34,074 nucleotides of DNA, taken from assembly GCA_029239905.1 (NCBI GenBank), contig JARBUB010000037.1, positions 1 through 34,074 of the forward strand. Reading direction: 5' to 3'. A program made the translations under genes and the position numbers. This DNA comes from Clostridia bacterium (GTDB taxonomy: Bacteria; Bacillota; Clostridia; Lutisporales; Lutisporaceae). Below, one piece after another: positions 2,102-15,429 of the stretch (the first letter of the stretch is position 1; each line of letters starts with the position of its first letter). A model generated the notes under the pieces. That model searched no databases, was not told the DNA's origin, and saw only the letters and a program-made list of their open reading frames with translations.

Positions 2102-2689
2102 ATGAATAAAAAGGATTTAAAAGCTAAAGACTTATTGCTTACACTTTTATTTTTACCGGGAATTAACAATGAGTATAATGAGCCTATAGATGGAAGGACT
2201 AGAATTACAAAAATGTTCTATCTATTTGATAAAGAGATAGTTCAATATTTTAACAATTTTAATATTATCAATATGCCAGAGTTTTTTGCTTATAACTATG
2301 GACCTTTCTCAAAAGAATTATTAGATGATATTGGTTTTTTCAGCGCAATAGGATTTGTAAATGAGAAAACACTTGAACAGCCTATGTCAGAATCAGAAGC
2401 TGCTGAATATTGTTTTGATAAGTACGATGATATTGGATATGGAGAAGAATCAGAGAGTTGCGAAAAGGAGAATCCTTTAGAAGTAAGTTATTATCTTACC
2501 GAAAAGGGAATAGAATATGTTAAGGAAAACGTAATTAATAACTTTTCAGAGGATCAGATCGAATTACTTACTAAGTTTAAAAGCAAAATAAACGCACTTC
2601 CTCTTGATGCAATAATAGAATATGTTTATAAAAAGTATCCTGAAAGTGCAGAGAAATCAAAAATAAAAGATAAGTATTTGAAGAATTAA
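2102..2689 (+). CDS. Panacea/YwgA-like (DUF4065-related) protein
   Basis: 195 aa. Start ATG has AAGGAGG at 2088-2094, spacing 7. Residues 28-85 (GRTRITKMFYLFDKEI, then FAYNYGPFSKELLDDIGFF) match the pattern of YwgA-like and Panacea/DUF4065 proteins: a helix with R-I/L-x-K-xx-F/Y-L, then a Y-G-PFS-x-E-L-x-DI segment. Such domains often act as antitoxins or in regulatory and defence pairs. The downstream gene begins 10 bp after the stop and is clearly co-transcribed. The middle (about 100-125) is acidic. Family assignment is from motif memory only; the function is inference. Confidence 0.55.
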   Translation: MNKKDLKAKDLLLTLLFLPGINNEYNEPIDGRTRITKMFYLFDKEIVQYFNNFNIINMPEFFAYNYGPFSKELLDDIGFFSAIGFVNEKTLEQPMSESEAAEYCFDKYDDIGYGEESESCEKENPLEVSYYLTEKGIEYVKENVINNFSEDQIELLTKFKSKINALPLDAIIEYVYKKYPESAEKSKIKDKYLKN

Positions 2690-2699
2690 GGTGGTTTTT

Positions 2700-3134
2700 A
2701 TGACAGAAACTGAAATGATGCTTGACTGCTATAACAAGTTGCAATCAAATGAATTATATAAAGAAATTGTATTAGAAGTACCATATCTTTCTAGGTGTAT
2801 TGATATGGTACTTGTAGACCAAAATAACGAGATTTTGAGTATTGAGTTTAAATTAAAAGACTGGAGAAAGGCTATTGCGCAAGCAAAGGATCATAGGTTG
2901 GGAGCTGATAGAGCATATATATGCTTGCCAAAACCTTATAAGGAAGTATCAAAGCTATTAATACAGGAAGTTGAAAATCAAGGGATAGGCTTACTACTAT
3001 ATGATAATGAAAGTGAGTATCCATTTATAGAAGTAGTACCATCAAAGTCTTTGAATGATAGATGGCAACCATGGATCGATAGTCTGAAAAATAGAATTAA
3101 TAGAATCTCTGAAAAAGTAGTTTTTGAGAGATAA
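2700..3134 (+). CDS. PD-(D/E)XK-like nuclease-fold protein
   Basis: 144 aa from ATG at 2700, chosen because AAGGTGG at 2688-2694 lies 5 bp upstream. A GTG at 2691 lies inside that ribosome site. The sequence SRCIDMVLVD, then ILSIEFKLKDWRKAIAQAK, fits a PD-(D/E)XK core: Asp on one strand, E-x-K on the next, then a helix with a Q. RAYICLPKP and a later GIGLLLYD resemble further strands of the fold. It forms a two-gene operon with the Panacea-like gene upstream and converges on the SIR2 gene. Could be the effector of a toxin-antitoxin-like pair; substrate unknown. Confidence 0.5.
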   Translation: MTETEMMLDCYNKLQSNELYKEIVLEVPYLSRCIDMVLVDQNNEILSIEFKLKDWRKAIAQAKDHRLGADRAYICLPKPYKEVSKLLIQEVENQGIGLLLYDNESEYPFIEVVPSKSLNDRWQPWIDSLKNRINRISEKVVFER

Positions 3135-3146
3135 TACATTAATTTT

Positions 3147-4469
3147 TTAAAACCACCCATCATTCAATGCATTTTCAATGCCCTTGTAACAGAATTCAAC
3201 CTTATGATTTTTAAAAAAGGAAATGTATCTTTTATAGGGTAAGTTTATTCTATAAAATGTTTCATTTTTGTCTGCAATGGGTTTAATATCTTTTAAAATA
3301 GAACGATATAACTTGGGGTTGTCCTTTTGGTGAAGGATAACCTTTATTTTTGCACTAGGTTTGATAGCTTTTTTTAATAAATATCTTAATTCAAAGTCTG
3401 CATCAGGGAATGAATATCCAATAAAAATTATTTCATCAGCCTCACATAAATCTAAATAAGCATTATGCCACACGTTTTTTAAATGTAGATTATTAAAAGC
3501 TTTTATAAAGGTTGGGGTTATAATAAGTCTTCTGAGCTTATATTCTCTGCTGGACGATTCGCAAAATTTACACTTCACTTCACCTTTGTTACTGTATTGT
3601 AGTGATATATTTCTAGCGTAGTCAGAATATAAACGACCACAATTACTGCAGACTAACCAATTTATTGAACCATGTAATTTCATCAGTTTAATATTATAAT
3701 TACCTTTTGCTTTTATATGAATTGATGGAACTTCTGAATTAATATCGTAATTGTAACAACAGTAATCAGGAAAAATTTGTTTTTCAGGATGAATCAAGTT
3801 ATTACTCTTACACTTATCGTAAATGTACTTATCTAATACTGTATCCCAGTTTAAAGTTATTAAAGAAAAGGTATCAGCTTCTAAGCCAGGTTTTAATCTT
3901 TTTCTTATTAGGAACTCTGCAATTTTATCATATAATTCAACATGGCTGGAAATATGTATAGAATTAGAAATTGAATATACTATACAGTAGTTTAAGCTTT
4001 CTTGAATATTGTCCATATCAGCTACCGAATACAGCGAAAAGTATTCTTTTGATAATGATGCTTTGTCAAGCAGTGTAAATACATCTTCAAGAGAAATATC
4101 AATGTCTTTAAGGTGAATATAAAATTGATTCCATTTTTCATTGAGTTCTATATTTGTGTTATCATATCTGTTAATATCGTAATCATATGAAACAAATTTA
4201 TCTTTGAATCTCTGACGAAGCTGGATATCTCCAAAAGTCTGTATAATAAATTTTGTAAGTATACGTCTGCTTTTTTCAAAGAATTCATATTGACTTATTA
4301 ACATAACAGAAAACTCATCAAAGGATTCAATAAAACCAAGGGGCATTGTAATAATTGGTTTTTGCAAAGTAAAAATGTTATTCAAGATATTTGATTGAAT
4401 TGGTAGCTTCGCTGCTACTGACGCACCGGCACCAAATATATAAACCTTCTTTTTAACTGGTCTAGACAT
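3147..4469 (-). CDS. SIR2-family NAD-binding/NADase-like protein
   Basis: 440 aa from ATG at 4469, whose A overlaps the TAA of the upstream gene (TAATG), indicating translational coupling. A start at 4508 would overlap the upstream gene by 40 bp. SIR2 signs: VYIFGAGAS at 9-17 (NAD-binding loop), LITLNWD at about 203-209, KLHGSINW at about 264-271 and FIGYSF at about 349-354. A zinc ribbon has CSNC at 274-277 and CKFC at 300-303. Standalone bacterial SIR2 proteins in phage cargo commonly deplete NAD during infection by another phage. Here it is paired with a TGT-like protein, which I infer is a sensor or modifier. Confidence 0.75.
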   Translation of the reverse strand: MSRPVKKKVYIFGAGASVAAKLPIQSNILNNIFTLQKPIITMPLGFIESFDEFSVMLISQYEFFEKSRRILTKFIIQTFGDIQLRQRFKDKFVSYDYDINRYDNTNIELNEKWNQFYIHLKDIDISLEDVFTLLDKASLSKEYFSLYSVADMDNIQESLNYCIVYSISNSIHISSHVELYDKIAEFLIRKRLKPGLEADTFSLITLNWDTVLDKYIYDKCKSNNLIHPEKQIFPDYCCYNYDINSEVPSIHIKAKGNYNIKLMKLHGSINWLVCSNCGRLYSDYARNISLQYSNKGEVKCKFCESSSREYKLRRLIITPTFIKAFNNLHLKNVWHNAYLDLCEADEIIFIGYSFPDADFELRYLLKKAIKPSAKIKVILHQKDNPKLYRSILKDIKPIADKNETFYRINLPYKRYISFFKNHKVEFCYKGIENALNDGWF

Positions 4470-5884
4470 TATTTCAACCCCACTAGAGATTTTAAAACTG
4501 ACGACCAATTACTTAAATAGTCAATTTGCTTAGACAATTCAGGTTCATGTGGAGCATAATCGCTATTAGTTTTTTCTAATCTGCTTATGAAATCATTTAG
4601 GCTTCTTTTTTCTACCTCTAAGAACTCTTTATGCTTGTTGTACTGATAATGTAATACGCAAATCTCTTTTGTATCTTGACTTGCATAGCTTCTTTTTTGT
4701 TTTACTCCATGTAGGGTAATGTCGTAGAACTCAGTATTTTCAAATAACGAGAAATTATTAATATCATCTTGAATAACTTCCATGCAAGTTGGGCAATGAC
4801 AAATATTCTTCTTATACTCTCTTGCTCCATCAGATGGAGGCACAGAAAAATAGCCCAATGACCTTAATAGCGTACTGGCATCCTTATAATCAAGGCGATT
4901 ATGTAAGGGATAATAGTAATACTTATTTGTAGGTATACCTCCTCCAACTGGAACTACAGCTCGACTCTCGCCATATTCAAGAGCATGTCCAACACCGCTC
5001 AATTCAAATCCAAGCTCGTTTTTAAATCCGGTTAATATAGTAGAGAAGAAACCACCATACAAATTATAAATTGGGATTTCATTTTGAGTAAATTTTTTAA
5101 TAATTTCTACAAAGCTATTTAATTCTGAAATATTTGCATCATGGTCATCAAACTTATCAATCCATAATAATACACCACTTGGTTTAACCTTAGTATATTC
5201 ATCTAAGATTTCATTTCTAAAGCTTTCATTAGTAAGGATTTCCTTTGAGACTACAAGCTGTGCATAGACTTCTTGATCATTTGCTATTGATTTTGTTAGC
5301 TTAATAAATTCACAATTTAGTGGCAACCATTTAAAATCAGTAGGTTTTGTAGTTAAGTAAAAATAGGGTGCTATTAAAAAACATGGTTTCAATTTACTTA
5401 TATCAAGAGCGGCATTATTTATATAGTCCATAAATCCTTTTTTTTCTAATTCTGTAATAATAGTATTAAGCTGAAAATTAATAACGTTTTTACAGAATTC
5501 CAACTTTAATTCAGGTGTATTAAAATGTGAGGGTAATACACTTATTTCAGAATTAATATTTGATTGTATTGGTTCGCCATATGCTTCAATTAAGTTTTCA
5601 ACAGATTTCTTTATTTTTATTTTCTTTTCTTTTTCACTATAGGAAGATATAGTACTTATGTCATGTTGAAATGCATGTGTAATAGGATCAATAAAGTAAC
5701 CTTTCGAACGCTTGCTTTTTAATATATGCATCATAATAAAACCTGCAATAGCACCAGGTGTATATGCTAACATATTTCCGTTAAAAGCCAATAAATCAAA
5801 TGAATTTTTAATTTGCTCAATATACTTCTGCTCTGCATTGGTTCCATATCTCAAAATATGTTTCATATTACTGCAATTATCCAT
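4469..5884 (-). CDS. TGT/DpdA-like barrel protein partnered with SIR2
   Basis: 471 aa, no confident family. CHCPTC (Cys362, Cys364, Cys367) followed by candidate His412 and His418 resembles the C-terminal CxCxxC...H zinc site of tRNA-guanine transglycosylases and DpdA-type relatives. Upstream, alternating strand-like segments (PCFLIAPYFYLT about 167-178, VYAQLVVS about 207-214, GVLLWID about 237-243, IYNLYGGFF about 272-280, ELSGVGHALEYG about 294-305) look like a TIM barrel. It is followed without a gap by the SIR2 gene and preceded by the repressor's terminator, so the pair forms its own unit. A radical or other metal enzyme with a similar Cys cluster cannot be excluded. Function unknown. 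Confidence 0.45.
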   Translation of the reverse strand: MDNCSNMKHILRYGTNAEQKYIEQIKNSFDLLAFNGNMLAYTPGAIAGFIMMHILKSKRSKGYFIDPITHAFQHDISTISSYSEKEKKIKIKKSVENLIEAYGEPIQSNINSEISVLPSHFNTPELKLEFCKNVINFQLNTIITELEKKGFMDYINNAALDISKLKPCFLIAPYFYLTTKPTDFKWLPLNCEFIKLTKSIANDQEVYAQLVVSKEILTNESFRNEILDEYTKVKPSGVLLWIDKFDDHDANISELNSFVEIIKKFTQNEIPIYNLYGGFFSTILTGFKNELGFELSGVGHALEYGESRAVVPVGGGIPTNKYYYYPLHNRLDYKDASTLLRSLGYFSVPPSDGAREYKKNICHCPTCMEVIQDDINNFSLFENTEFYDITLHGVKQKRSYASQDTKEICVLHYQYNKHKEFLEVEKRSLNDFISRLEKTNSDYAPHEPELSKQIDYLSNWSSVLKSLVGLK

Positions 5885-5960: not shown

Positions 5961-5987
5961 TAAAAATAGTCCCCTTTGGAGGACTAT
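5961..5987 (-). terminator. Intrinsic terminator of the repressor gene
   Basis: On the minus strand ATAGTCC pairs with GGACTAT, extended inward to about 9 bp with a small loop (stem 5966-5987), and is followed by five U residues (5962-5966). It lies 40 bp after the repressor stop and separates lysogenic repressor transcription from the TGT-like/SIR2 cassette. Confidence 0.75.
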
Positions 5988-6027
5988 TGATAACAAATTA
6001 TTATTCATATTATTTTTACTAACTAAC

Positions 6028-6789
6028 CTAAGTTTTTTTTATATGAGATAGCACATCAAGATACTGTCTCAAGCTAACCGCATCAAGTCCTAATGAAATA
6101 GCCTTTTCTATGGTCTCATTCCATTCATTACTTAGACTCTCTTTATCATGTAGAAAGTCTCTATATGTAGACATAGTTGGAGCATCCTTTTGGACACTTA
6201 CCAGGGTGCCAATAATCTTATGCACACCGTTAACTTTAATATCTGGATAACTTGGATTGGCAGCTCTTAATACAGGGGTGCCGTTTTCTTGACAGAAGAA
6301 TTTAAGAGTAGCGGTCCATTCACCTTCATTGGCACCAGCAGCGACGATCTGTCCATGTTGAGCAGTGCTTGTCTGCTTCATAATAGCAATATCACCTTCA
6401 TGTATGCCTACCCAGCTCATGCTGTCTCCTACAACCCTCAATGCAAAGTCTGCCTTTAAATCCGTGGGGACTTCTATTTGCCCATCCCAATTATCTTCCG
6501 CAAGTAATGGAAGTCCGGCACGGATAGTGCCAAGTATAGGAATATTGAATCTATTTTGTGTATCTTTAAATTTCTCATCTATATAACCTGCAACTACAAG
6601 CAATTTCATATAGTCCAGATTTAAATAATCAGATATTTTTTTTAAAATCTCCGGACTAGGATTTAATCTTTCTCCGGATTCAATTTTTGATATTTCTGTG
6701 TTGCTAATTCCTGTGTAAAGAGCAAGTTGCCTTTGTGAGTAATCTTTTTTATCTCTAGCTTCTTTAATTATTTCTCCCACAGTTTTCAT
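6028..6789 (-). CDS. CI/LexA-type phage repressor (HTH + S24 peptidase)
   Basis: 253 aa. An N-terminal XRE helix-turn-helix (about 5-60: YSQRQLALYTGISNTEISKIESG) is followed by an S24 self-cleaving domain: cleavage bond Ala91-Gly92 (GTIRAGLP), nucleophile Ser123 (GDSMSW) and Lys163 (ATLKFF). It maintains lysogeny by blocking the rightward promoter and would be inactivated by RecA-stimulated autocleavage in the SOS response. It is divergent from the Cro-like gene. GGTGGTGAG precedes the ATG. The C-terminal ~50 residues extend beyond the usual S24 domain. Confidence 0.92.
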   Translation of the reverse strand: MKTVGEIIKEARDKKDYSQRQLALYTGISNTEISKIESGERLNPSPEILKKISDYLNLDYMKLLVVAGYIDEKFKDTQNRFNIPILGTIRAGLPLLAEDNWDGQIEVPTDLKADFALRVVGDSMSWVGIHEGDIAIMKQTSTAQHGQIVAAGANEGEWTATLKFFCQENGTPVLRAANPSYPDIKVNGVHKIIGTLVSVQKDAPTMSTYRDFLHDKESLSNEWNETIEKAISLGLDAVSLRQYLDVLSHIKKT

Positions 6790-11183: not shown

Positions 11184-12134
11184 ATGAGTGATTTAGTTAT
11201 AAATAGAACCCCTGAACTGATAGCAGCTGAGATTAATAATATTAAGAATCAGACTAGGAAGATGGTTTTATATAACAGCATTGAAATAGGCCGTCGCCTA
11301 ACCGAGGCAAAGCAACTTGTATCTCATGGCGAGTGGGGCGGTTGGTTAGAAGCTTCAGTGGACTACTCGCAAAGAACCGCCTCAAATCTAATGAGGATAT
11401 TTGAAGAATATGGAGCTGATCAACTAACTCTTTTAGGGGATAATTCAAAATCGCAAGCGCTTGCCAATTTGAGCTATACGCAAGCAGTTGCATTGCTCGG
11501 AGTACCTGAAGAAGAGCGAGAAGAGTTCGTTGGAAAGCATGATATAGACAATATGAGCACCAGAGAGCTGCAGCAAGCCATAAAAGAAAGAGACGAGGCA
11601 GTTAAGAAGCTTAAGGATGCTATACAGACAGCGAAAGCTAAAGAAGATGAAGCTTCAAAGCTGCAGCAAGACCTTAAAAAAGAGCAAGAGCATTCAGTTG
11701 TTGAGATAACTCGACTTAGAAAATCCATAGAAGAACTGAAGGATAAAATCAAGGATGCTGAGGACTCAGGGAATGATGAAGAGATTGATGCCTTAAACGA
11801 TTCACTTAAGAAAACAGAGGATGATTTGAATTGGGCAAACAGTAGGATCCTTGAACTTGAGAAGCAGCTCAAAGAAAAACCCATCGAAGCTACTGTAGCA
11901 ACTATAGAAAAGGTACCAGAAGAAATTGAGAAAGAGCTTGAGGATTTAAGAAGAAAAGCTTTGGTTGGTGGAGCTGCTGAGAAATTTGCAATTTACTTTG
12001 ATGAGCTGGTTAAGGACTTCCAGAAGCTACTCGGAGTATTGGCCGAAATCGCCGGCACAGACGAAGAGAGCTATAGCAAATATAAGAATGCTATCAATGC
12101 TTTGCTTAGTAAAATGGGAGAGAAAGTCCTGTAA
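11184..12134 (+). CDS. DUF3102-domain protein with long coiled coil
   Basis: 316 aa. Residues 1-120 carry the DUF3102 pattern (AAEINNIKNQTRKMVLYNSIEIGRRL, GEWGGWLEASVDYSQRTASNLMRIF), an HTH-like region seen in Firmicute phage and plasmid proteins. Residues about 130-245 form an uninterrupted charged coiled coil (KKTEDDLNWANSRILELEKQ), followed by a helical tail. GGAGAAAGGACAAAAG precedes the ATG. Probably DNA-associated; exact role unknown. Confidence 0.78.
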   Translation: MSDLVINRTPELIAAEINNIKNQTRKMVLYNSIEIGRRLTEAKQLVSHGEWGGWLEASVDYSQRTASNLMRIFEEYGADQLTLLGDNSKSQALANLSYTQAVALLGVPEEEREEFVGKHDIDNMSTRELQQAIKERDEAVKKLKDAIQTAKAKEDEASKLQQDLKKEQEHSVVEITRLRKSIEELKDKIKDAEDSGNDEEIDALNDSLKKTEDDLNWANSRILELEKQLKEKPIEATVATIEKVPEEIEKELEDLRRKALVGGAAEKFAIYFDELVKDFQKLLGVLAEIAGTDEESYSKYKNAINALLSKMGEKVL

Positions 12135-12161
12135 TGACTAAAATGCGAAGGAGTGAAATTG

Positions 12162-12422
12162 ATGAATAAACCTCATTGCTACGGAAAAATGGATTGGGTA
12201 TTAAAGTACTCAGAGGATGAAATACCAAGAACAAGTATTTGCTCTTGCAACTATACAAACAGTTGTTTAAGGATTACTAATAACAAAAGACAGGAAGTTA
12301 AATGCAACGAAGCTGAAAAAACTACCGAAAACAAATGTTTAGGGTATCAAATGTCAGAACATGATGATGAGCCAATAGAAAGATGCAAAGGGTGCAAAGA
12401 CAATATTTTTTATGAAGAATAG
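12162..12422 (+). CDS. Small Cys-rich protein, unknown
   Basis: 86 aa from ATG 12162, AAGGAG at 12148-12153. Eight Cys residues in pairs (CSC, SCL, KC, KC, RCKGCK) suggest one or two metal sites, with CKGC near the end. N-terminal HCYGKMDWVLKYS. No family recognised. Located between the DUF3102 gene and a DUF4406-like gene with short spacing, so co-transcribed. Confidence 0.6.
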   Translation: MNKPHCYGKMDWVLKYSEDEIPRTSICSCNYTNSCLRITNNKRQEVKCNEAEKTTENKCLGYQMSEHDDEPIERCKGCKDNIFYEE

Positions 12423-12468
12423 TTACACATCACAAGATAGATATTCAATGAGATTGGAGGTTTTTGAA

Positions 12469-12810
12469 TTGGACAAAGACTGTATATACTATCTTAGTCA
12501 TCCATGCACAACTTTTGGAGATCCAGCTGCTAATAGATATGCAGCTGCTATATATGAACGTTGTTTAAGCGATATGCATCAAATCACTATGATAAATCCT
12601 ATTGTTATAATTCCTGTTAACACAGAAGACTCTGTTGCAATGATAATGTGCAGGAAGATGTTTGACGTATGCGGTGCAATAATTATGTGTCCAAATTGGG
12701 ACAAGTCCAAAGGCTGTAACGAAGAGTTTCAGTGGGCATTGCAGGATAACAAGCCAATATATATTTTGAATCAGGACTTAACTGTATTTCGATATGAGCT
12801 AGCAGGTTAA
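12469..12810 (+). CDS. DUF4406 / deoxyribosyltransferase-like protein
   Basis: 113 aa if it starts at TTG 12469, which has GGAGG at 12456-12460; a start at ATG 12412 lacks a good ribosome site and overlaps the upstream gene. IYYLSHPCTTFGDPAANR, then VIIPVN, GAIIMCPNWDKSKGCNEEFQWAL and KPIYIL follow the nucleoside 2-deoxyribosyltransferase-like fold (N-terminal strand with Y/S loop, central D/N, and GCxxE near the acid). Phages use such proteins in nucleotide metabolism or as uncharacterised DUF4406 members. Substrate unknown. Confidence 0.65.
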   Translation: MDKDCIYYLSHPCTTFGDPAANRYAAAIYERCLSDMHQITMINPIVIIPVNTEDSVAMIMCRKMFDVCGAIIMCPNWDKSKGCNEEFQWALQDNKPIYILNQDLTVFRYELAG

Positions 12811-14820: not shown

Positions 14821-15429
14821 ATGGTAAAGAAGAGACCAGCTAATCCGATAAAAGATGAAAAGTTGATACTGGATATCCAGGATTATTTGAAATATAAAGA
14901 TGAGAGAAATTTTGTTTTATTTGTCCTTGGGATATCAACTGGATATAGAGCTGGTGATCTTGTAATCCTGAAGTCAAGAGATATAAGAAAGGCTCTATCT
15001 GATGGCTATTTTGAAATTTTAGAAGGGAAAAAGATTCATAGCAAAAATATCCGGAAAGAAAATATTAAACCTAGAGTAGTAAAGATAATAGGAAATCTTG
15101 AGATAATATTAAAACGGTTTATTAAAGATAAAAAAGACTATGAATATATATTTCAATCAAGAAAAGGCTGCAACAAACATATAGAGGTCAGTAGAGTGAG
15201 CACTATATTAAGGGAAGCCGGGGAACAATTTGGTTTAAAAAATATAACAGCCCATTCTTTGAGAAAAACCTTTGCTTATCAGATCTATGTTGAAAGTAAT
15301 TATGATATCACTGTTGTTAAAGAGATGCTTGGTCATAGCAGCATTGAAGAAACTAAAGCATATATAGGCCTCGATAGAGAAACCTACGACAAATATACAG
15401 ATTCACTTAATAAGTTCATAAGAGCTTGA
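14821..15429 (+). CDS. Minimal tyrosine recombinase
   Basis: 202 aa, only a catalytic domain. The active-site set appears complete: Arg43 (GYRAGDL), Lys at about 70-71, His145 and Arg148 (HSLRKTF), His172 (LGHSS) and nucleophile Tyr181 (AYIGL). The N-terminal core-binding domain of phage integrases is absent, so it is probably not the integrase of this phage, which encodes a serine integrase. Such short recombinases lie before terminase genes in several clostridial phages. Possible resolvase of genome multimers or of the nearby inverted repeats. Confidence 0.82.
   Translation: MVKKRPANPIKDEKLILDIQDYLKYKDERNFVLFVLGISTGYRAGDLVILKSRDIRKALSDGYFEILEGKKIHSKNIRKENIKPRVVKIIGNLEIILKRFIKDKKDYEYIFQSRKGCNKHIEVSRVSTILREAGEQFGLKNITAHSLRKTFAYQIYVESNYDITVVKEMLGHSSIEETKAYIGLDRETYDKYTDSLNKFIRA

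Follow-up and report, generated by a model that had tools for sequence, protein, structure and literature searches.

A prophage-borne gene set joining a TGT-like protein family to Panacea and PD-(D/E)XK genes and an exchangeable effector, a candidate suicide-type defense system

Panacea antitoxins reportedly neutralize toxins of unrelated types, RNases and membrane disruptors among them, and a sensor role has been proposed for them (PMC8832971, PMC10440598); neither of these papers mentions SIR2. The survey of Panacea toxin–antitoxin (PanAT) systems excluded longer operons (PMC8832971). Homologues of tRNA-guanine transglycosylase (TGT) offer another point of comparison, since a 2026 study predicts them in BREX-related systems, where their partners are quite different from those described below (PMC12839542). 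Known SIR2 systems (Thoeris ThsA, DSR1, DSR2, SIR2-HerA, and SIR2-APAZ Argonaute) all lack a TGT-like partner, as the earlier note on this DNA correctly stated. When we searched the literature for Panacea with SIR2, TGT-like proteins with SIR2, and similar combinations, we found no description among the open-access papers covered.

The window, i.e., the whole stretch of 34,074 nucleotides that was analyzed, had been thought to carry a two-gene cassette consisting of a SIR2 gene and a gene for a 471-aa protein, hereafter TGTL. The unit is in fact composed of four genes, two of which (Panacea and PD-(D/E)XK) had been missed. The features are as follows.

2102..2689, + strand: antitoxin-like Panacea/SocA-domain protein, 195 aa (Pfam SocA_Panacea, E 1e-4)
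2700..3134, + strand: PD-(D/E)XK-fold protein, 144 aa (AlphaFold model, Foldseek, conserved columns)
3147..4469, − strand: SIR2-family protein, 440 aa from ATG, predicted effector (Pfam SIR2_2/SIR2, PADLOC SIR2 models, family alignment)
4469..5884, − strand: TGT-like TIM-barrel protein TGTL, 471 aa, with CHCPTC...H412, D66, and E306, unclassified family (AlphaFold, Foldseek)
about 5965..5988, − strand: terminator-like hairpin 3′ of the repressor gene (folding energy −13.3 kcal/mol with z −2.8, then a U-run)

The SIR2 and TGTL open reading frames (ORFs), both on the − strand, share one base in a TAATG overlap, just as the earlier note had read it, and the Panacea and PD-(D/E)XK genes at 2102-3134 (+) are convergent with them. 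By Pfam, the SIR2-TGTL pair has a serine recombinase (202-1881, −) on one side, which bears out its placement near the integrase, and on the other a LexA/CI-like repressor (6028-6789, −). The prophage, one end of which is formed by this region, also has ORFs that, judged by eye, are terminase-, portal-, capsid-, tape-measure-, and amidase-like. The hairpin behind the claim that a terminator cuts the unit off from the repressor is real as well: it has a 10-bp stem and divides the repressor gene from the TGTL-SIR2 transcript, although it was missed in a strict search for terminators. A second, tyrosine-recombinase-like ORF (14821-15429) is found within the prophage, in addition to the serine recombinase. 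In locus L001, the serine recombinase gene shares its end with an overlapping glycosyltransferase-like ORF (11619-12701), which may mark an attachment site within a host gene. A sister locus, L069 (54% identical), is a related prophage contig from the metagenome that also yielded the window's twin contig; it has exactly the layout of the window, again between repressor and recombinase.

How conserved is this gene set? A first tblastn with TGTL yielded Haloarcula and Arthrobacter plasmid loci, in both of which two genes come before TGTL, one for a Panacea/SocA protein and a small one showing the pattern D...ExK...Q. Scanning 84,980 species genomes with TGTL sequences then turned up 27 loci, spread over Bacillota, Planctomycetota, Acidobacteriota, Bacteroidota, Actinomycetota, Verrucomicrobiota, several candidate phyla, and one archaeon. 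Two candidate relatives were left out, G167 (stops, no context) and G333 (fragmentary). Panacea and PD-(D/E)XK genes adjoin TGTL in all 30 loci that are uncut upstream, window included, and, because the survey was queried with TGTL alone and not with its neighbors, this is independent evidence for the gene set. The sample is biased toward sequences close to the search patterns, and several loci are metagenome-assembled. In Moorella mulderi and a Thermanaeromonas MAG (Bacillota), the four genes form one operon in the order Panacea, PD-(D/E)XK, TGTL, SIR2. The convergent arrangement occurs only in the window (2102-5884) and L069 (5983-9755), where one transcript cannot cover all four genes since they lie on opposite strands; elsewhere, all genes are co-directional. 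Near the M. mulderi operon (L023), there are also an 831-aa SIR2-matching protein (2455-4950) and a second Panacea-like gene (12156-12755). Mobile settings include 1) prophages, between repressor and recombinase (window and L069), 2) a phage contig (L070), and 3) plasmids (L003 and L004); most loci sit on cellular contigs, several of them adjoining transposases, recombinases, or restriction genes. By raw adjacency, some loci have neighbors that match recombinases or models of defense genes, namely mad2, DUF1156/DUF499, HNH, type I methylase, and integrases. The unit comprises three constant genes (Panacea, PD-(D/E)XK, and TGTL) and one that is interchangeable.

Structure prediction and profile searches of TGTL, which the earlier note had proposed, gave TGT as the best fold in the Protein Data Bank (PDB) and no described family as a match. 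The AlphaFold model (pLDDT 92.6, pTM 0.91) consists of a TIM barrel, a helical insert, and a C-terminal domain, in keeping with the barrel and the CHCPTC motif read from the sequence. The best PDB match by Foldseek is a bacterial TGT (E 4.8e-4), with a full-length structural alignment (TM 0.52 on target, rmsd 8.5), generic TIM barrels ranking behind at E 2e-3. Of 27 family members, 23 have the zinc motif CxCxxC and all 27 the histidine that follows (His412), at a spacing of 15-49 residues; for canonical TGT, these data give about 25, and L037 has 25. Using hhalign, IDPxTHAFQ in TGTL, in which D66, F72, and Q73 are invariant, is placed against the TGT active-site motif TDSGGFQ with a modest P of 0.027, which makes D66 a candidate counterpart of the catalytic Asp102 of TGT. 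Since the positive control with true relatives, DpdA against TGT, scored only P 0.089, hhalign is too insensitive to prove TGT membership. In the region of the TGT nucleophile Asp280, alignment by eye finds an invariant Glu306 in TGTL and no clear Asp280 counterpart. TGTL matched no family above noise in Pfam, PADLOC, NCBIfam, or PHROGs, and its family members likewise matched nothing in Pfam (TGT included), NCBIfam, or PADLOC. No relatives were found among annotated phages, the TGTL profile returned nothing useful against PDB sequences, and a viral fold library gave just weak TIM-barrel matches. The suggested resemblance to TGT and DpdA thus survives in its first half, through fold and zinc motif. 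DpdA identity was rejected, because NCBIfam NF041059 matches 0 of 27 TGTL members and hhalign to phage DpdA gave P 0.78. Judging from the model, TGTL is probably a divergent member of the TGT superfamily, TGT-like in its fold and zinc motif.

For the 144-aa protein (pLDDT 96.6 for the AlphaFold model), the top Foldseek match is SPO1766 (MmcB-like, E 2.5e-6), followed by NucS/EndoMS, AF2093, and Card1, and D35, E49-x-K51, Q61, and E3 are invariant in conserved columns of the family. The modeled structure has the PD-(D/E)XK core fold with its D/ExK motif, which makes this protein a candidate nuclease. The window Panacea protein scores 23.5 bits against Pfam SocA_Panacea (PF13274), slightly below the 25.7 cut-off, and 12 of 29 family members match this model, the best at 1e-7.

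SIR2-family membership, claimed from motifs, is borne out by Pfam: SIR2_2 matches above cut-off (E 7e-6) and SIR2 slightly below it (E 1e-4), PADLOC SIR2 models giving partial, weak matches only. All the named motifs (GAGAS, TLNWD, KLHGS, and FIGYSF) are present, as is the internal zinc ribbon (C274, C277, C300, and C303). In an alignment of 11 members, all keep the four zinc cysteines and His266, and nearly all keep Asn207; the catalytic Asn/Asp/His are kept in the family, with TLNWD and KLHGS conserved and SLDWD in one member. That member (L019, 3535-4746) has Asp replacing the catalytic Asn, and another SIR2 gene (L015, 8314-9303) is apparently frameshifted close to its end. From its sequence, the protein is predicted to degrade NAD+. 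This clade, with TGTL adjoining, matches at E<1e-139; the next SIR2 relatives (E 5e-44) have no adjoining TGTL.

SIR2 and TGTL do occur together repeatedly, SIR2 being directly 3′ of TGTL in 12 loci, but it is not the fixed partner it was taken for. The fourth gene is 1) SIR2 in 12 loci, 2) a protein with two or three hydrophobic transmembrane (TM) segments in 17, or 3) a PIN-domain protein in one (Pfam PIN, E 6e-8), and two of these are never found together. The TM proteins, of about 160-210 aa, are encoded between Panacea and PD-(D/E)XK and have no convincing Pfam family, known membrane families included; the PIN gene, in an archaeal locus, occupies the same position. No effector gene was seen in the Haloarcula locus. 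Panacea is immediately 5′ of the toxin candidate only in the TM and PIN forms, not in the usual SIR2 form. On a maximum-likelihood TGTL tree, effector labels need four changes, strongly supported branches forcing at least two for SIR2 and three for TM, and these labels are far more clustered than when shuffled. Phyla are intermixed on the tree, as expected of horizontally moving genes.

Further out, the TGTL and PD-(D/E)XK pair is kept while its other neighbors vary. Panacea is absent next to the pair in L066, L068, L081, and L103. By eye, a Ser/Thr kinase is the third gene in L068/L072 (G418:C80), L103, L078, and L079, replacing Panacea and SIR2/TM; in L078 and L079, the kinase accompanies PD-(D/E)XK, and in L079, TGTL lies beyond the stretch covered. 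Also by eye, the pair adjoins AbiEi/AbiEii-like genes in L071 (2-4291) and an HsdM-like fragment in L081 (87-3060). TGTL is absent from the immediate surroundings of SIR2 relatives outside the clade and of most other PD-(D/E)XK relatives.

What might these genes do together? We give an even chance to the reading that they form a four-gene, prophage-borne abortive-infection or toxin–antitoxin-type system with an exchangeable effector. Suicide-type defense is suggested because unrelated killers swap around a constant core, and because there is a Panacea gene, carriage on prophages and plasmids, and, in several loci, neighbors that match restriction or Mads-type models. In an uninfected cell, the Panacea protein would keep the effector inactive, while TGTL and PD-(D/E)XK would act as a joint sensor that binds, probes, or edits a nucleic acid (a tRNA or DNA base). 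Phage infection would alter that nucleic acid, or the complex, and free the effector. Once freed, SIR2 would deplete NAD+, so that growth would stop before the phage matures and the lysogen population would be protected against other phages. Counted against this reading are the opposite strands in the window and L069, the usual SIR2 form in which Panacea does not precede SIR2, the effectorless Haloarcula locus, and the window Panacea match just under its cut-off. More tentatively, and with some doubt, TGTL and PD-(D/E)XK may embody a new immune sensing principle, where a base-exchange-type enzyme checks a base in tRNA or DNA for what it is or how it is modified, and a change made by the phage licenses any one of the plug-in killers held by Panacea (NADase, membrane toxin, PIN nuclease, or kinase).

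Other readings of the same genes have to be weighed. Dpd makes use of TGT homologues, and BREX-related systems are predicted to include them (PMC12839542); here, a TGT-like fold with a zinc motif is paired with a nuclease fold in every complete locus. It is conceivable, if unlikely, that the set is a Dpd-like modification-restriction system in which TGTL inserts a modified base in host DNA or tRNA, PD-(D/E)XK cuts nucleic acid without (or with) that base, and SIR2, TM, or PIN proteins are a back-up suicide arm. Against this, the constant set has no base-synthesis or ATPase/helicase genes, TGTL has no similarity to DpdA and, by eye, an invariant Glu306 where the nucleophile Asp280 would be expected, and the nuclease, at 144 aa, is a minimal domain with no further one for recognition. 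The Panacea domain, exchangeable toxins of types known from PanAT, and mobile elements would also suit a plain Panacea toxin–antitoxin (addiction) module that stabilizes the prophage, with TGTL and PD-(D/E)XK as accessories. We think this quite unlikely, since these two genes are the most constant part and, unlike accessory genes, are kept in distant loci that have no Panacea.

A role in RNA repair has been proposed for phage sirtuins (PMC9503650), and TGT and PD-(D/E)XK folds handle nucleic acids, so a non-immune cassette for nucleic-acid repair or tRNA maintenance might aid the phage, with SIR2 in RNA-end clean-up. This is improbable: the set has no ligase, kinase-phosphatase, or Nudix partner, a swap of SIR2 for membrane proteins or PIN is ill-suited to repair, and most loci are on cellular contigs, several next to transposases, recombinases, and restriction genes.

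We rate the set as a putative modular suicide defense of a known sort with an unclassified core, which would become categorically new if base reading by TGTL were shown; nucleobase chemistry would then be linked to suicide-type immunity. It is in any case a defined and testable gene set that spans bacteria and archaea and is centered on an unclassified enzyme family, and, at about 3.8 kb, it is short and suited to cloning and phage challenge. It also bears on the role of multi-gene Panacea loci, with a constant three-gene core around which SIR2, membrane, and PIN effectors are swapped.

Compared with known systems, the set shares a part with each. Like PanAT, it joins a gene with a Panacea domain to exchangeable toxins of unrelated types, membrane proteins and RNases among them, but both its main forms have four genes, two further ones being constant, while PanAT systems have two or three; it could have escaped the PanAT survey because longer operons were set aside (PMC8832971). 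TGTL has in common with TGT (PF01702) and DpdA a TIM barrel and the CxCxxC...H site, and its IDPxTHAFQ can be lined up with TDSGGFQ of TGT, but by profile comparison it reaches P 0.03 with TGT and P 0.78 with DpdA, it matches neither Pfam nor NCBIfam, it has a long helical insert, and its constant set, unlike TGT/Dpd, has no base-synthesis genes. The SIR2 domain with its N/D/H, a predicted NADase effector, recalls Thoeris ThsA, DSR1/2, SIR2-HerA, and SIR2-APAZ/short pAgo, but it forms its own clade with an internal zinc ribbon, and none of its partners is a TIR, HerA, Argonaute, or STAND protein. The PD-(D/E)XK protein shares the alpha-beta-beta-beta-alpha-beta core and D...ExK...Q motif of SPO1766, NucS (EndoMS), and Card1, but is a minimal single domain with a dedicated TGTL partner. 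Finally, a constant sensor part with swappable SIR2, TM, and nuclease effectors resembles the CBASS-type design, from which the set differs in that its constant genes include no nucleotide cyclase or second-messenger enzyme.
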